Shown here one piece after another: positions 25,375 to 35,172 of a stretch of 47,673 nucleotides of DNA. The DNA comes from a virus. The stretch spans positions 1 through 47,673 of the IMG/VR virus record IMGVR_UViG_3300048833_000083; one strand, 5' to 3'. Below the pieces are notes generated by a model. That model did not search any database. It was not told the DNA's origin and was given only the letters and a program-made list of their open reading frames with translations. A program made the translations under genes and the position numbers. Position 1 is the stretch's first letter. Every line of letters starts with the position of its first letter.

Positions 25375-25446
25375 ATGAGCTCGACCCATATTCCGCAAAG
25401 CCGACAATATGAAACATCTACTAGCTATAGCAGTTTTAGGCGTTAG
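25375..25446 (+). CDS. Possible 23-aa leader peptide overlapping the LysM-CHAP start
   Basis: ATG at 25375 is the only start with an AAAGGAG site upstream (about 10 bases away), yet its frame ends after 23 codons at TAG 25444-25446, past the ATG (25409) of the larger gene in another frame. It may couple or attenuate translation of that gene. Product has no features (SSTHIPQSRQY). Could be fortuitous. Confidence 0.3.
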   Translation: MSSTHIPQSRQYETSTSYSSFRR

Positions 25447-26236
25447 CCTAGCAACTGTGACCACCAGCAACGTGTCAGCAATGAACGTCCTCGGTGGAGA
25501 AAAAAACACTAGCATCAGTAATTTGTTCCAACTTAATTTGACTAAGCCGTTCGTGCTACAGCCAGCAGAGCCGATTGTAGCAACGGACATCGATATACCG
25601 AAAGCTGAGGAGAAAACCCAGCCAGAGGAAAAGAAAACAGAAATTGAAAAACCAAAAGTCGTTGAATATACCGTTGAATCGGGCGATAGCCTTTGGAAAA
25701 TCTCGGAAAAGTTCAGCGTCACGTGGGTACGCATTTGGCAAAAGAATACGAATCTGAGCAATCAGGACGTTATCAACGTAGGCGATAAGCTCATTATCCC
25801 GAACGCTGATGAGGTTTTGGAAGACAGACCACTATTTATACCAGTTGCACCGATAATCGCCCCACAGACGAGCTCAGGCGTTGCGACAACAGCACCAGTT
25901 CGCCAAGCACCTGTCAGTTCGTATCAGAATGGTGGAAATACGTATGACTTTGGCTATTGCACGTGGTACGTAAAAAACCGTCGTCCTGACTTACCGAATC
26001 AACTTGGTAATGCAAATACGTGGTATGCACGTGCTCAGGGTTACGGTTTAGCCACTGGAACGGAAGCTCGGGCTGGAGCGGTCGGTACAACGACACGTGG
26101 AGCACTTGGTCACGTTGTTTATGTCGAAGCAGTACTTGGTGGCGGTAAAATCCGCATCAGTGAAATGAACGCACCGACTTGGGGTGAAACGACCAGCCGA
26201 ACGGCAAACGAATCAGAGTTCGTATATATTTACTAA
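25409..26236 (+). CDS. Secreted LysM-CHAP peptidoglycan hydrolase
   Basis: 275 aa. Residues 1-24 are a signal peptide (KHLLAIAVLGVSLATVTTSNVSA). After a Pro/Glu/Lys linker, residues about 85-132 are a LysM domain (YTVESGDSLWKISEKFSV ... NVGDKLIIP). Residues about 175-275 are a CHAP amidase/endopeptidase: catalytic Cys in YCTWYV and His in LGHVVYVE. Unlike the cytoplasmic endolysin at 15769 it should be exported by the host, so it may remodel wall for entry exclusion, help host growth, or aid release. Its single-gene unit with own promoter in the early region looks like a moron. No clear ribosome binding site directly precedes this ATG. Confidence 0.85.
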   Translation: MKHLLAIAVLGVSLATVTTSNVSAMNVLGGEKNTSISNLFQLNLTKPFVLQPAEPIVATDIDIPKAEEKTQPEEKKTEIEKPKVVEYTVESGDSLWKISEKFSVTWVRIWQKNTNLSNQDVINVGDKLIIPNADEVLEDRPLFIPVAPIIAPQTSSGVATTAPVRQAPVSSYQNGGNTYDFGYCTWYVKNRRPDLPNQLGNANTWYARAQGYGLATGTEARAGAVGTTTRGALGHVVYVEAVLGGGKIRISEMNAPTWGETTSRTANESEFVYIY

Positions 26237-29968: not shown

Positions 29969-30131
29969 ATTATACGGAAAGTTTCTGTGCTTCATCGGCA
30001 AGCATAAATGGAAAGTGATTCCTGGCACTGAGGGTGTCGACTACCGTAGCAAATGGGAGTCATACGATACCGCTGAGGGCATCTGCCAACGCTGTGAAAT
30101 CAAATCTGACATTAGAAAGGAACGCTGGTAA
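29961..30131 (+). CDS. Hypothetical 56-aa protein
   Basis: ATG at 29961, GGGAG upstream, eight-base overlap with the previous gene, and its TAA shares its last base with the next ATG. Contains C-F-I-G-K-H-K-W and CQRCEIKSD; the outline (HKWKVI ... CQRC) resembles small phage zinc-finger proteins. Too short to assign. Confidence 0.6.
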   Translation: MGELYGKFLCFIGKHKWKVIPGTEGVDYRSKWESYDTAEGICQRCEIKSDIRKERW

Positions 30132-30496
30132 TGGGGAAGAACGAAGAACTCGGCTTGCCATTTGGCGGTATGAAAAAAGTAGCGTTCTGCTTTGATGTCG
30201 ATGGCACTTTGATTCAAGAACCGTACGTAGAAAATCGAACTACGGTTGACCTGTTGCTATCGGTTGCTTGGCAGAAATGGAAAAACGTCGATGTCATTGT
30301 ATGGTCAGGCGGTGGGGCAGAATACGCAAGACAGCAAGTATCTCGACTATTGCCCGATGAAATTGTTGAACGTATAAAGTTTCACTCGAAGATTGAGCAT
30401 AGGGCATTACGGCAAAAGTATTCTGCTCTGATTGCTATCGATGATATTCAGGACACAGCAATAGGTGACGTTAATCTGATTGTGAGGAACAAATGA
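30131..30496 (+). CDS. HAD-like phosphatase/nucleotidase
   Basis: 121 aa. Motif I FDVDGTL gives nucleophile D22 and D24; motif II is in VIVWSGGG; the acidic motif IV is ALIAIDDIQD. No cap domain, so it is a minimal HAD fold of the type acting on nucleotides or polynucleotide 3' ends. Overlaps upstream and downstream genes by one and four bases. A nucleotide-pool role beside the DNA-modification candidates is possible. Confidence 0.78.
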   Translation: MGKNEELGLPFGGMKKVAFCFDVDGTLIQEPYVENRTTVDLLLSVAWQKWKNVDVIVWSGGGAEYARQQVSRLLPDEIVERIKFHSKIEHRALRQKYSALIAIDDIQDTAIGDVNLIVRNK

Positions 30497-30792: not shown

Positions 30793-31241
30793 GTTTGCAT
30801 CTGGAGTTTGAACCGCATAGCTGGTATATGGGTTTTGCTATTAAGTATGATGAAAACTATAACGACCCCTGCCAATTTTCTTATGAGCCGTATAGCAAGA
30901 ACTGTATTGTACACGGTGAAAAACGTATGATGGTGACTGACGACTATTGCGATGGCTTCGCATCAAAATGGCAAGCTTTTACTGATGATGGCAATACGTA
31001 TCGAATTGTTGACCTGCAAGCAAAAACGCTCAAGCGACTGCACGAAAAGATACGCAAATACCATTTGAGAAAGCATAACGGCTACGGTGAACGAATCGCC
31101 AAAAGACGACTTGAACAGCTCAGAATCGAGCTACGAGCTGAACGCATTAGCACTGGTGAATTGGCTGAATTGCAAGGTCTGTCAAACTATATAGATAAAG
31201 GCGATGTCGAATTGCTAGAACCAGCAGGAGTACCAGAGTAA
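30789..31241 (+). CDS. Hypothetical early protein
   Basis: 150 aa, ATGA overlap. N-terminal half strand-rich with aromatic residues (LEFEPHSWYMGFAIKYDENY); C-terminal half basic and helical (LKRLHEKIRKYHLRKHNGYGERIAKRRLEQLRIEL). The basic helices suggest nucleic-acid contact. Family not recognised. Confidence 0.65.
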   Translation: MSLHLEFEPHSWYMGFAIKYDENYNDPCQFSYEPYSKNCIVHGEKRMMVTDDYCDGFASKWQAFTDDGNTYRIVDLQAKTLKRLHEKIRKYHLRKHNGYGERIAKRRLEQLRIELRAERISTGELAELQGLSNYIDKGDVELLEPAGVPE

Positions 31242-31759
31242 TGAAGAAAATATCATTACCGAAAGGAGGACACGTACTTGTAGACGATGAAGACTATGCG
31301 ATTCTTTCAAAACATACGCTCATAAAAAATCTACGCTCAGGTTTGGTAATGATTACTCTGTGGGTGAATAATCAGCCTAGATATTTTCCTGTAAGTCACG
31401 TAGTAAAATCAGTCAACGGTAGCTGTGTAGTGGTTTATGATGACGGCAACCATATGAACTTGCAAAAGAATAATCTTTTGGTTGTACCACGCTCAGTGTT
31501 CAACCATAAATACAGTAATTCATATAGCAAGCGTGGAAAAACATCAAAATATCGTGGAATATCGAAATCACACGTAAAATCGACAGGTCAAGTATCTTGG
31601 AAAGCTCAAATAATGCATCAAGGCGTTAGATACGAAAAAAGATTTAAGTATGAACGTCACGCAGTAAATTGGTGGAACGATAAAGCACGTGAATTGTTTG
31701 GCGAACACGCATATCAAAATAAGTTGGAGGATATTGATGAAAATACTATTTGTACCTAA
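31241..31759 (+). CDS. AP2-domain HNH homing-endonuclease relative
   Basis: 172 aa. Residues about 105-165 form an AP2 DNA-binding domain (SKYRGISKSHVKSTGQVSWKAQI, GVRYEKRFKYERHAVNWWNDKARELFGEHA). The preceding part resembles an HNH nuclease (VYDDGNHMNLQKNNLLVV) but the first His of the H-N-H triad looks replaced, so activity may be impaired. It is more AT-rich than neighbours and sits between early genes and the glycosyltransferases, as inserted homing genes do. Confidence 0.75.
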   Translation: MKKISLPKGGHVLVDDEDYAILSKHTLIKNLRSGLVMITLWVNNQPRYFPVSHVVKSVNGSCVVVYDDGNHMNLQKNNLLVVPRSVFNHKYSNSYSKRGKTSKYRGISKSHVKSTGQVSWKAQIMHQGVRYEKRFKYERHAVNWWNDKARELFGEHAYQNKLEDIDENTICT

Positions 31760-33074
31760 GACGCACACCAGTAAGCACATCACCAGTAGTAGCTCAGTAG
31801 CATACTGGATTGATATGTGTGCTCTCAAGCCCGAATTGAAGCTGGACATAATTGTACCCGAGGACACAATAACCGATGATATAACTCTGCCTAACGTGAC
31901 GTTCCTGAAAATTGCTCAGACTCACAATGACCCATTTGTTAATCATTTGAGCTTTGAGGCTTGGGATTACGTCAGACGACGCAATAAGCAATATTCTGCC
32001 GTCCTGACGAACCTGCCGTATTGGGTAGACCCTTTGAACACTGCATTATGGGAACGTATTTGGGGCGGACTCGCTCCACGCTATACGACACCGCTTTTAT
32101 GTGTATCTGATGAATGGGACGATAAAGAATTGCAATGGGCTGAAACCGAATGGGCGAAAGCAACGATGGCATCGATATTGCAACGGCATCGTGTTATGAC
32201 GCTCACCGTACCAGACAAGGCTCGAATCCTGATAGATATTATTCCGTACAAGCCGACTGGTGCATTGAATCACCCTTACGTCATTACGCCAACGGTCTAC
32301 AGCGAAGACGTTGAGCCTATGATTAAACACAATGACGGAAAGCTCCGCATATTTCACGGTGGAACAGTACCGAAGCGAAAGCGAATCGATGAACTGATTG
32401 ATGTGGTCGGCAAAGTTCGAGGAATGTACCCGAACGTCAGCATTATACTAGCGACCCCGAAAGAATTACCTGACAAGTATAAGGATATTGATTACGTTGA
32501 ATATCACGAAAACTGCACACGTGAGGAGTTCAAGAAGTTACAATACACGGCTGACATCGCATATTGTGGACCAAAGTACATTGGAACTGGTCTGGCGTAC
32601 ACACAGAACGTATTTGCTGGACTGCCACTGCTGATATTGCACGGTGACTGGCTACGAGGACGATTGCCTGATGACTACTCGTTCATCGCAAAAGGCAAGC
32701 GTGAACTGGAGCAACAGGTGGCTATGCTGGCTGAAATCTACAAATCGCAAAATGCTGATGAACTGCAATTCGTCAACGAAAACTTTTTGAACCTGCAAAC
32801 GTATATGAACGACAATCAGAATAGCGTTGAAGCGGTCGACCGAATACTGGAGCATTTCCGTGTTGAGGGCGGTGCGGCTATGGGCGAAGCAACGAAAGTC
32901 AAGCATTTTCTTTGGGACATCATACGTGAAAATGAAATATCGTTTACGAGCTATGCAGACTTTTGCAAAGACGTGCAGAAACACATCAAGTCGGATAAAA
33001 TAGACGTAAGAAAGGTCGTCACCGAGGGAATGTATTGGAACATCAAATCGATGGTGAAGCATAGCTGGAAATGA
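31737..33074 (+). CDS. GT-B glycosyltransferase, first of tandem pair
   Basis: 445 aa from ATG at 31737 (GGAGG upstream), overlapping the AP2 gene by 23 bases. N-terminal Rossmann start (MKILFVPKTHTSKH), C-terminal donor-binding half with LRIFHGGTVPKRKRIDELI, YVEYHENCTREEFKKLQYTADI and LAYTQNVFAGLPLLIL, the GT4-like layout. A helical extension follows residue about 360 (VKHFLWDIIRENEIS). Likely moves a sugar from a nucleotide-sugar to DNA bases, a virion protein or a host glycan; context with a ParB-like gene favours DNA. Confidence 0.75.
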   Translation: MKILFVPKTHTSKHITSSSSVAYWIDMCALKPELKLDIIVPEDTITDDITLPNVTFLKIAQTHNDPFVNHLSFEAWDYVRRRNKQYSAVLTNLPYWVDPLNTALWERIWGGLAPRYTTPLLCVSDEWDDKELQWAETEWAKATMASILQRHRVMTLTVPDKARILIDIIPYKPTGALNHPYVITPTVYSEDVEPMIKHNDGKLRIFHGGTVPKRKRIDELIDVVGKVRGMYPNVSIILATPKELPDKYKDIDYVEYHENCTREEFKKLQYTADIAYCGPKYIGTGLAYTQNVFAGLPLLILHGDWLRGRLPDDYSFIAKGKRELEQQVAMLAEIYKSQNADELQFVNENFLNLQTYMNDNQNSVEAVDRILEHFRVEGGAAMGEATKVKHFLWDIIRENEISFTSYADFCKDVQKHIKSDKIDVRKVVTEGMYWNIKSMVKHSWK

Positions 33075-34456
33075 GAATACTAATTGTTCCGCTTATCAGT
33101 ATGTCCGATGCGGTAAAGGACAGTAATTTCAGGGTATTTGAAGACCTGATGCAACACGCACCCGATGACATCTGGTGGTATATGGTCGTTCCTGACCGTA
33201 TGCCTGACGAAAGCATCGAAGCGGCTCAGAAACGCAATCCGAAGACGACATTCGTGAAAGCCGATTGGGTTGATGACTTTTGGACGGAGCAATGTTATGT
33301 GCCTCGTGAATTGTTACGCAACTTTATGCAAAGGGGCGGTAAGTACCCGATTGATGCGGTTGTGACCAGCAAAACGCCAGCGGTTGCGACTATGGCGGCA
33401 ATGCTTGGTGACTTTAGGCGAACCGATATGTTGCCATTTCACATATTTGAACCGCTCGTTCGTTTGGAGCAAACGAAGTATGAACCGTTCCATTGGGCTA
33501 TGACCAGTGCCTACGGACACGCTCAAACGTGGTTTCTGAACCACAGGGAGCGTGAAATAGCTCAGGAGTACTCTCGGGGCTTTACGTCACCGAAACGCTA
33601 TCTCAAGTCACGTGACGATGGCTACGTGGACGGTCTTGGTATTGATACCGAAGCAATCGACAAGGCAATTGCTGGAAAGAAGCCTGGCGACAGGTTTCAG
33701 GTCATTTGGGGCGGTCGTATTACGGCTGAGAAGAACCCCGATGACTTTATCGAACTGATGGATAAGTTCTATTCGTTTGGTCGTGATGTGAAGCATATCG
33801 TTACGAGCCACCAGATTAGTCCGAAGCAAGCGTTCAAAATGAAAGGTGGATTTATCGAGGAGCTTGCTCTGAACTGTCCACGTGATGAGTTTTGGGGCAA
33901 GGTAGCTGAAAGCAATATGTTCTTGTGTACCAGCAAGACTGAGGGTTTTCCAGTAGGGTTTTGGGAGCAACTGTACATAGCAGAGGTTGGTATATTCCCG
34001 AACAACGAATGGGTGAAAAAGTCATTGCCAGCAGATTACCCATATATTTATAACGGCATAAGCGAAGCACACGCTATGATTCGCTGGATTTCGGAGAATT
34101 ACGATGAGGCACGAGCAAAAGTGGGCTGGATTCGACAGTTCATCAGGGAAAGATATGACAGTAAGCTTATTGGTGACAGATTCGCCAATCGGCTTCGTGA
34201 TAGTATCGACAAAGCCAGTCCTGTCACCAGACTCGGAGGAATTGGCGACCTTGTTAAAGAAGTTGTGGACGGAAAAGATGAAATCGTATGGGACGACCTC
34301 ACAGGAGGAATCCGAAAGCTATCTCGGAATTATGACCCCCGAAGAATCAGCAAACTCGGGCAACCAAGCATCTACGACCTCCACCAGTATATGAAGTCGC
34401 TGGGGTATATTGATACCTGTGAAGCAGATAAACCAACGTATAGGAGAGCTAAATGA
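33071..34456 (+). CDS. GT-B glycosyltransferase, second of tandem pair
   Basis: 461 aa, ATGA overlap with the first. N-terminal MRILIVPLISMSDAV, donor half with FQVIWGGRITAEKNPDDFIELM and the retaining-GT-B motif region FLCTSKTEGFPVGFWEQLYIAEVG (the acidic E--G-----E pattern of GT4). C-terminal extension is basic with ISKLGQPSIYDLHQYMKSLGY, a possible HTH-like module. It is related in outline to the preceding enzyme, perhaps by duplication or acting sequentially on the same acceptor. Confidence 0.78.
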   Translation: MRILIVPLISMSDAVKDSNFRVFEDLMQHAPDDIWWYMVVPDRMPDESIEAAQKRNPKTTFVKADWVDDFWTEQCYVPRELLRNFMQRGGKYPIDAVVTSKTPAVATMAAMLGDFRRTDMLPFHIFEPLVRLEQTKYEPFHWAMTSAYGHAQTWFLNHREREIAQEYSRGFTSPKRYLKSRDDGYVDGLGIDTEAIDKAIAGKKPGDRFQVIWGGRITAEKNPDDFIELMDKFYSFGRDVKHIVTSHQISPKQAFKMKGGFIEELALNCPRDEFWGKVAESNMFLCTSKTEGFPVGFWEQLYIAEVGIFPNNEWVKKSLPADYPYIYNGISEAHAMIRWISENYDEARAKVGWIRQFIRERYDSKLIGDRFANRLRDSIDKASPVTRLGGIGDLVKEVVDGKDEIVWDDLTGGIRKLSRNYDPRRISKLGQPSIYDLHQYMKSLGYIDTCEADKPTYRRAK

Positions 34457-35172
34457 GTGAAGTAAAAATTGAGCAAGTAGAACTCAGCAAAATTGTATTG
34501 CTGGCTGATAACGTAAACAAAATGGACGATGTTACGTTCAACGACTTGGTGGAGAAGATTGTCACCAACGGATTCGACCAGCCTATCAAGCTATGGTGGA
34601 ACGAAAGGCTCGAAAAGTATGAAGTGGTCAAGGGCAATCACCGATTCCAAGCTGGAACGTATCTCGATTACAAAACCATTCCAGCGGTCATCGCCTCATA
34701 CGAGGGTGCGACATTTGAAGAACAGCGTGACAATATGCTGGCTGACGCTATGTCTGACAATATTCTCAAGGGCAATATTGACCCCGAATTGTTCACTCAG
34801 CAATGGCAGAAGCTAACGAAACAGTATGGTGTCGAAGCTACGCTAAAGAAAATGAACATTACGACAATGGACCAACTCAAGGGCTTGGTTCGGGAGATTC
34901 GTAAACAGCTACCCGACGAGCTCAAAAAACGTCTTGATGAATCGAAAAAGGAAATCAAAACGATTGAAGACTTGTCACGAGTATTGAATGAAATGTTTGC
35001 CACTTACGGAGATACGCTCAGTCAGCATTTTATGGTATTCAGCTACGGTGGTAAGGAGCATATTTGGATTGAAACTGATGCGGAGCTTTGGGCTACGGTT
35101 CAACTGCTTGTTGAAACTCACAAGGAAAGTAAGGAGGATTTGGCTCAGACACTCAAGACAAAACTCGGATAA
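34453..35172 (+). CDS. ParB-like (sulfiredoxin-fold) protein
   Basis: 239 aa. Residues about 5-85 are a ParB N-terminal domain: ELSKIVLLADNVN, DLVEKIVTNGFDQPIKLWW, YEVVKGNHRFQAG with the G61-N-H-R64 box. Then a helical region (TKQYGVEATLKKMNITTMDQL) and a C-terminal strand-helix part. Phage ParB-like proteins occur beside base-modification enzymes and may load onto DNA, cut it or act as kinases. ATGA overlap makes it part of the glycosyltransferase operon. Confidence 0.8.
   Translation: MSEVKIEQVELSKIVLLADNVNKMDDVTFNDLVEKIVTNGFDQPIKLWWNERLEKYEVVKGNHRFQAGTYLDYKTIPAVIASYEGATFEEQRDNMLADAMSDNILKGNIDPELFTQQWQKLTKQYGVEATLKKMNITTMDQLKGLVREIRKQLPDELKKRLDESKKEIKTIEDLSRVLNEMFATYGDTLSQHFMVFSYGGKEHIWIETDAELWATVQLLVETHKESKEDLAQTLKTKLG

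Follow-up and report, generated by a model that had tools for sequence, protein, structure and literature searches.

Phage DNA glycosylation is known from the T-even alpha- and beta-glucosyltransferases and from RB69-type arabinosylation, and in Mosigvirus from two putative sequential transferases (PMC13390438). The T-even and RB69 systems use a hydroxylase of the thymidylate synthase family, and ParB has not been reported for them. Genes with a ParB domain accompany other phage base-modification clusters, including the CmoX/CmoY carboxymethylcytosine clusters, in which a ParBc gene lies beside a DNA-modification set built on a C5-methyltransferase and a ligase (PMC12783734). Here we describe a glycosyltransferase–ParB locus in the virus record IMGVR_UViG_3300048833_000083 (positions 1-47673, the whole stretch of 47,673 nucleotides, hereafter the window). 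Two glycosyltransferase-like genes, GT1 (31737..33074, 445 residues) and GT2 (33071..34456, 461 residues), run on the + strand into the gene of a ParB-like protein (34453..35172, 239 residues). They are joined by ATGA overlaps at 33071..33074 (GT1 stop, GT2 start) and 34453..34456 (GT2 stop, ParB start), and a GGAGG precedes the GT1 start ATG at 31737. A preliminary description had recognised this arrangement and proposed a DNA-hypermodification island, noting that ParB-like proteins recur in such islands, as the clusters above bear out. Coordinates, both overlaps, PHROG and Pfam matches and structure models all agree with the arrangement, and the gene families, fold and linkage of the three-gene unit are far beyond chance.

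The overall architecture of GT2 is that of a GT4-like GT-B glycosyltransferase. The match to PHROG glycosyltransferase family 30253 spans the whole protein (E 9e-27), and Pfam detects GT2 at 0.13 at best. The AlphaFold2 model, computed from a 17-sequence alignment (predicted local distance difference test, pLDDT, 83; predicted template modelling score, pTM, 0.84), has the two-Rossmann GT-B fold, and a structural comparison covering residues 1-383 places it nearest to GT4/GT-B enzymes at Z 26-28, among them BshA, a mannosyltransferase and PglA; against 7qsg, Z is 28.3 with a root-mean-square deviation (rmsd) of 2.8 over 338 residues. The signature is intact, with E291-x7-E299 and GGR216..K221, in which R216 and K221 are the basic donor-binding residues of the C-terminal Rossmann domain. 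GT2 is also the best-conserved long protein between the window and a sister contig, IMGVR_UViG_3300033553_000090, with 81% identity compared with 79% for the major capsid protein, 77% for ParB and 75% for TerL, and its nonsynonymous divergence (dN) is 0.14 compared with 0.64 for GT1, synonymous divergence (dS) being saturated. The C-terminal domain of about residues 384-461 (34220..34453, + strand) is family-specific and helical with short strands; it can be aligned in GT1 and in relatives, which confirms the C-terminal extension proposed earlier for each transferase. For the possible helix-turn-helix-like segment suggested there, the predicted order of helices (H) and strands (E), H-E-H-H-H-E-E, is compatible with a winged helix, and searches of Pfam and of the sequences of solved structures in the PDB gave no match to a known DNA-binding family.

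By its sequences, GT2 together with ParB is a conserved phage module. Relatives of the two adjoin in Arthrobacter, Agrobacterium, Rhodobacter, Rhizobium, Stenotrophomonas and Vibrio phages, as found by a protein search of phage records; a nucleotide search of phage records gave no match. In an all-against-all comparison of eight genomes (the window, the sister contig, Kitkat, JP1, RcTiptonus, PG28, DLP5 and RHph_Y1_11), ParB and GT are the sole two families present in all eight. Some of these genomes are related: terminase, tape measure and a handful of further genes are common to the window, the sister contig and Kitkat, and a separate core is common to the remaining five. In 13 of the 16 informative IMG/VR records, which were fetched with ParB alone, a GT gene precedes ParB at a distance of 0-1.9 kb; the count is 20 of 23 once phage records and one GT-found locus are added, a set partly found through the GT. 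The pair in one module contig, L016 (7712-10720), looks broken in the standard code and is intact only under code 25 (TGA=Gly), which gives a GT of 510 residues (29% identity to GT2) and a ParB of 264 residues (31% identity), with an epimerase containing 17 TGA codons close by; this need for code 25 suggests a phage that infects Gracilibacteria or Absconditabacteria. A ParB scan of bacterial genomes gave no match, deep mixed alignments proved too diverse for pattern scans, and an open-access literature search returned no description of the GT–ParB pair as a unit. The neighbourhood analysis proposed in the preliminary description supports the three genes as a real conserved unit and shows that GT with ParB recurs in distant phages. 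The same neighbourhoods make it quite unlikely that ParB serves packaging or replication while the transferases are functionally unrelated neighbours held by operon inertia. One lineage does have ParB, then a small gene, then TerL, the window TerL lies 4.7 kb downstream, and three ParB loci have no adjoining GT, but the pair is kept across lineages that differ in other gene order, and TerL does not adjoin it in Kitkat or the window.

The ParB-like protein matches Pfam ParB_N (5e-8) and PHROG 26387 (7e-51), and its C-terminal part is family-specific. The model resembles ParB, Noc and KorB at Z 12-14, and nucleotide-bound ParB at Z ~13.5 with an rmsd of 1.5-1.6 over 93-95 residues. P-motif 1 of the family is GxHR (GNHR or GHHR) and not GERR with its catalytic Glu, so nucleotide use may differ from that of classical ParB; in addition, N-x-x-K/R-G replaces ENxxR. 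The sequence profile also matches SerK (E 5e-8), and the SerK/sulfiredoxin fold scores Z ~8, but the ParB/Noc folds fit better, and an assignment as SerK/Srx-like kinase was for that reason set lower. A ParABS partition system was rejected as well: no ParA ATPase partner (PF13614) was found in the eight genomes, with controls matched in 14 of 14, making plain partition unlikely. In one contig (L014, 4775-10804), a ParB homologue without a GT stands behind PhyH-like, PIG-L deacetylase, GNAT-like and PurD-like ATP-grasp genes, with a ThyX-like gene ~7 kb from the ParB region, and this locus resembles another ParB-associated modification cluster.

The explanation that we rank first, and hold tentatively, is that GT2 and ParB form a two-gene module that glycosylates the phage's own DNA with the assistance of ParB. 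GT2 would use a nucleotide sugar as donor and place its sugar on phage DNA, while the ParB-like nucleotide-dependent protein would sit on the DNA and bring GT2 there. The donor chemistry would come from the host or from exchangeable phage sugar genes (epimerase, aminotransferase, de-N-acetylase, UDP-sugar dehydrogenase), and GT1, a fast-diverging paralogue, would be either a second transferase or a partner that influences which acceptor or sugar is used. Such sugar genes do occur at the module. In the sister contig, GT2 and ParB are separated by a HAD-protein gene and an NAD-dependent epimerase gene. Other loci carry GDP-mannose-dehydratase-like, UDP-sugar dehydrogenase, DegT aminotransferase or PIG-L genes, some of which also occur in DLP5 and Y1_11. 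Epimerase matches were found in 6 of 14 genomes, and each of the six has such a match no more than 4.4 kb from ParB (multiplying the six chance estimates gives ~2e-6, a rough figure and no formal p value). The window is without any epimerase and has only a small HAD-like gene upstream of the module (30131..30496, + strand), which is homologous to the HAD gene inside the sister-contig module and of uncertain membership in the window unit. The presence of sugar-nucleotide genes beside the module makes real glycosyl transfer likely and the sugars exchangeable. That DNA is the acceptor is suggested by the link to ParB, by the failure to find ParA, by the ParB genes of other base-modification clusters and by the restriction-resistant virion DNA of two phages that both carry the GT+ParB module, DLP5, in which 4 of 36 restriction enzymes cut and 32 were resisted (PMC5834331), and DLP3, in which none of 15 cut (PMC7326821).

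Several results weigh against DNA as the acceptor. The enzymes nearest to GT2 in fold have small molecules, lipids and glycans as their acceptors, and the T4 alpha- and beta-glucosyltransferases have no sequence link to the module transferases. GT2 is near neutral in charge, and ParB of the window carries a net charge of -9, an acidity that lends no support to DNA binding. The preliminary description had recognised neither a thymidylate-synthase-like hydroxymethylase nor a TET/JBP enzyme. The former absence stands, as thymidylate synthase (PF00303) was not found in the window or in 20 other records, which may be incomplete, with nine controls matched, whereas the TET_JBP search gave no match in the window and none in its control either. 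C5-methyltransferase (PF00145) was not found in the window (10 controls matched), ThyX had no match there, and no base-modifying Pfam family appeared among 53 further window proteins. Elsewhere, ThyX-like matches comprise one in the GT-less contig G013 and a weak one in DLP5. The latter is gp110 (MG189906.1 73334-74227), annotated hypothetical and located just 3' of TerL; gp143, annotated ThyX, sits elsewhere and is matched by neither the ThyX nor the thymidylate synthase model. DLP5 has other candidate genes for its resistant DNA, such as the weak ThyX-like one, and restriction-resistant DNA is common among Stenotrophomonas phages, several from outside the DLP3/DLP5 genus included (PMC8228603). 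Two further candidates were discarded: a deazaguanine route, since TGT and QueC were not found in 14 genomes, the window and DLP5 included, and a known defence protein, since the sole PADLOC match was a weak one to HTH_IX.

Restriction sites in the window add to these objections. Six 4-bp palindromes are nearly absent (observed/expected: GATC 0/~177, CATG 0/153, CCGG 1/75, CGCG 1/70, GCGC 2/68, GGCC 4/87); they are the six lowest of the 256 tetramers, with z of -8 to -15.5 in synonymous-codon shuffles. GT1, GT2 and ParB together contain none of these sites where 49 +/- 6 are expected, which implies that the module has long been under the same restriction pressure. The sister contig is depleted in the same palindromes except CATG (5 of 6), and a similar loss is seen in the module contigs L012 and L016, a pattern that suggests very heavy restriction pressure in Patescibacteria hosts. 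As yardsticks, unmodified T7 has 6 of 143 expected GATC sites and glucosylated T4 shows no loss; nor do DLP5, JP1, Kitkat and Y1_11 show site loss, while GGCC is missing from PG28 and GTAC from RcTiptonus. The near-elimination of restriction-type sites makes dense protective modification unlikely in the window phage, and the simplest reading is that this phage enters cells with restrictable DNA; DLP-like relatives may have dense protective modification. The earlier suggestion that the module would counter restriction finds no support in the window phage, and the broader claim of DNA hypermodification is supported in part, with the ParB link and the resistant DNA of DLP3 and DLP5 on one side and the missing hydroxylating enzyme and the purged sites on the other. 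If GT2 does glycosylate DNA, the mark in the window phage would be too thin to block restriction, and would be sparse, directed to particular sequences such as those for packaging or replication, or meant to counter some other defence. A more specific form of this idea, decidedly unlikely in our estimate, has a nucleotide-switched ParB clamp recruiting a GT4 enzyme to certain sites of the phage, where sparse sugar marks, in place of a genome-wide coat, would serve packaging, replication or defence signalling. The acceptor base would then be made by an unrecognised route or be glycosylated directly, in phages ranging from those of Patescibacteria to those of Proteobacteria and Actinobacteria.

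GT1 is a diverged GT4-like paralogue of GT2. It matches PHROG 30253 at E 6.5e-4 and the GT2 family in a profile-profile comparison by hhalign (probability 98%, E 2.5e-13), and has no match to solved structures by sequence. In both orthologues, from the window and the sister contig, Gln replaces the second Glu of E-x7-E and Thr replaces the core Arg, GT1 reading YIGTGLAYTQ and GGT at the E-x7-E and donor-binding Arg positions. The two orthologues are 37% identical, among the lowest values and similar to that of the tape measure. Judged from these substitutions, GT1 may act as a partner without catalysis of its own or may work by altered chemistry. In streptococci, GtfB is the acceptor-binding, catalytically dead partner of GtfA. 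With GT1 in a comparable role, the transferases would glycosylate a virion or host protein, a possible but somewhat unlikely explanation that we rank second. A tandem GT4-like pair in which one member has no catalytic signature is consistent with it, as is the tape-measure-like divergence of GT1, expected of a partner that tracks a changing surface, and the avoidance of restriction sites speaks against a DNA acceptor. In mycobacteriophages two GT genes have been linked to capsid glycans (PMC11256854), and WcaG of DLP3 was detected in purified virions (PMC7326821). However, protein glycosylation leaves the tight ParB link across distant phages unexplained, and the module GT family has no matches in mycobacteriophages.

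The host bears on another acceptor. The LysM-CHAP endolysin of the window (25409-26236) has eight relatives in bacterial genomes, five of them labelled Candidatus Saccharibacteria, and judging from this one gene the host is probably a Saccharibacterium. A Saccharibacteria-like host lives by surface contact, and a phage that modified its cell-surface or cell-wall glycans could thereby achieve superinfection exclusion, as the authors of the DLP3 and DLP5 studies proposed for their homologue (PMC7326821, PMC5834331). The structural neighbours of GT2, which include lipopolysaccharide, teichoic acid and capsule transferases, and the fast change of GT1 fit such a role. Even so we consider it unlikely and rank it third: carriers of the module infect Gram-positive, Gram-negative and, probably, Patescibacteria bacteria, whose envelopes differ, the module is linked to ParB, it contains no transmembrane segment (maximum KD19 1.2), and GT2 is conserved as a core gene and not as a variable one.

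Other genes flank the module. An HNH-endonuclease-like gene (31241-31759) lies immediately 5' of GT1 and overlaps it, and its best match in the sister contig sits away from the module. In four loci a SLOG (YAcAr/'DprA-like') gene is found directly upstream of the GT (L022 62-427, L028 7713-8114, L005 983-1399 and L006 8182-8571).

A GT+ParB unit without a known base-hydroxylating partner, in phages of very different hosts, is a testable candidate for undescribed glycosylation chemistry. Through it, the unexplained restriction resistance of Delepquintavirus DNA becomes open to genetic study, as does the question why ParB-domain genes accompany phage DNA-modification clusters; the site avoidance cautions that a phage GT beside ParB is not by itself proof of anti-restriction camouflage. 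Among the described systems close to that of the window is the pair of Arthrobacter Kelleziovirus phages (Kitkat gp88, gp93 and gp95; phrog_30253/phrog_26387), which likewise have two GT-like genes upstream of ParB, with full-length homology at 25% for GT2 and 35% for ParB. Kitkat differs in that gp88, the counterpart of GT1, keeps the E-x7-E signature lost in GT1 and a small open reading frame (ORF) separates gp93 from ParB. Delepquintavirus DLP5 and DLP3 have homologous GT and ParB genes in the same order, in a cluster of GT, small ORF, ParB, a further gene and TerL, but possess a single GT, a nearby TerL, upstream PIG-L, WcaG, WecE and methyltransferase genes, and no site avoidance. The T-even and RB69-type systems share with the module phage transferases accompanied by sugar genes, but their hydroxylase is absent from the window; the CmoX/CmoY clusters share the ParB-domain gene beside a modification set, but not, in the window, the C5-methyltransferase. 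The GT4 enzymes BshA, MshA, PglA and PimA have the fold of GT2 residues 1-383 (Z 26-28) at 10-14% identity, the C-terminal extension lying outside the aligned part and the acceptors of these enzymes being small molecules, lipids and glycans. The folds are therefore known, each gene has its PHROG family, and the unit belongs with the phage glycosyltransferase modules.

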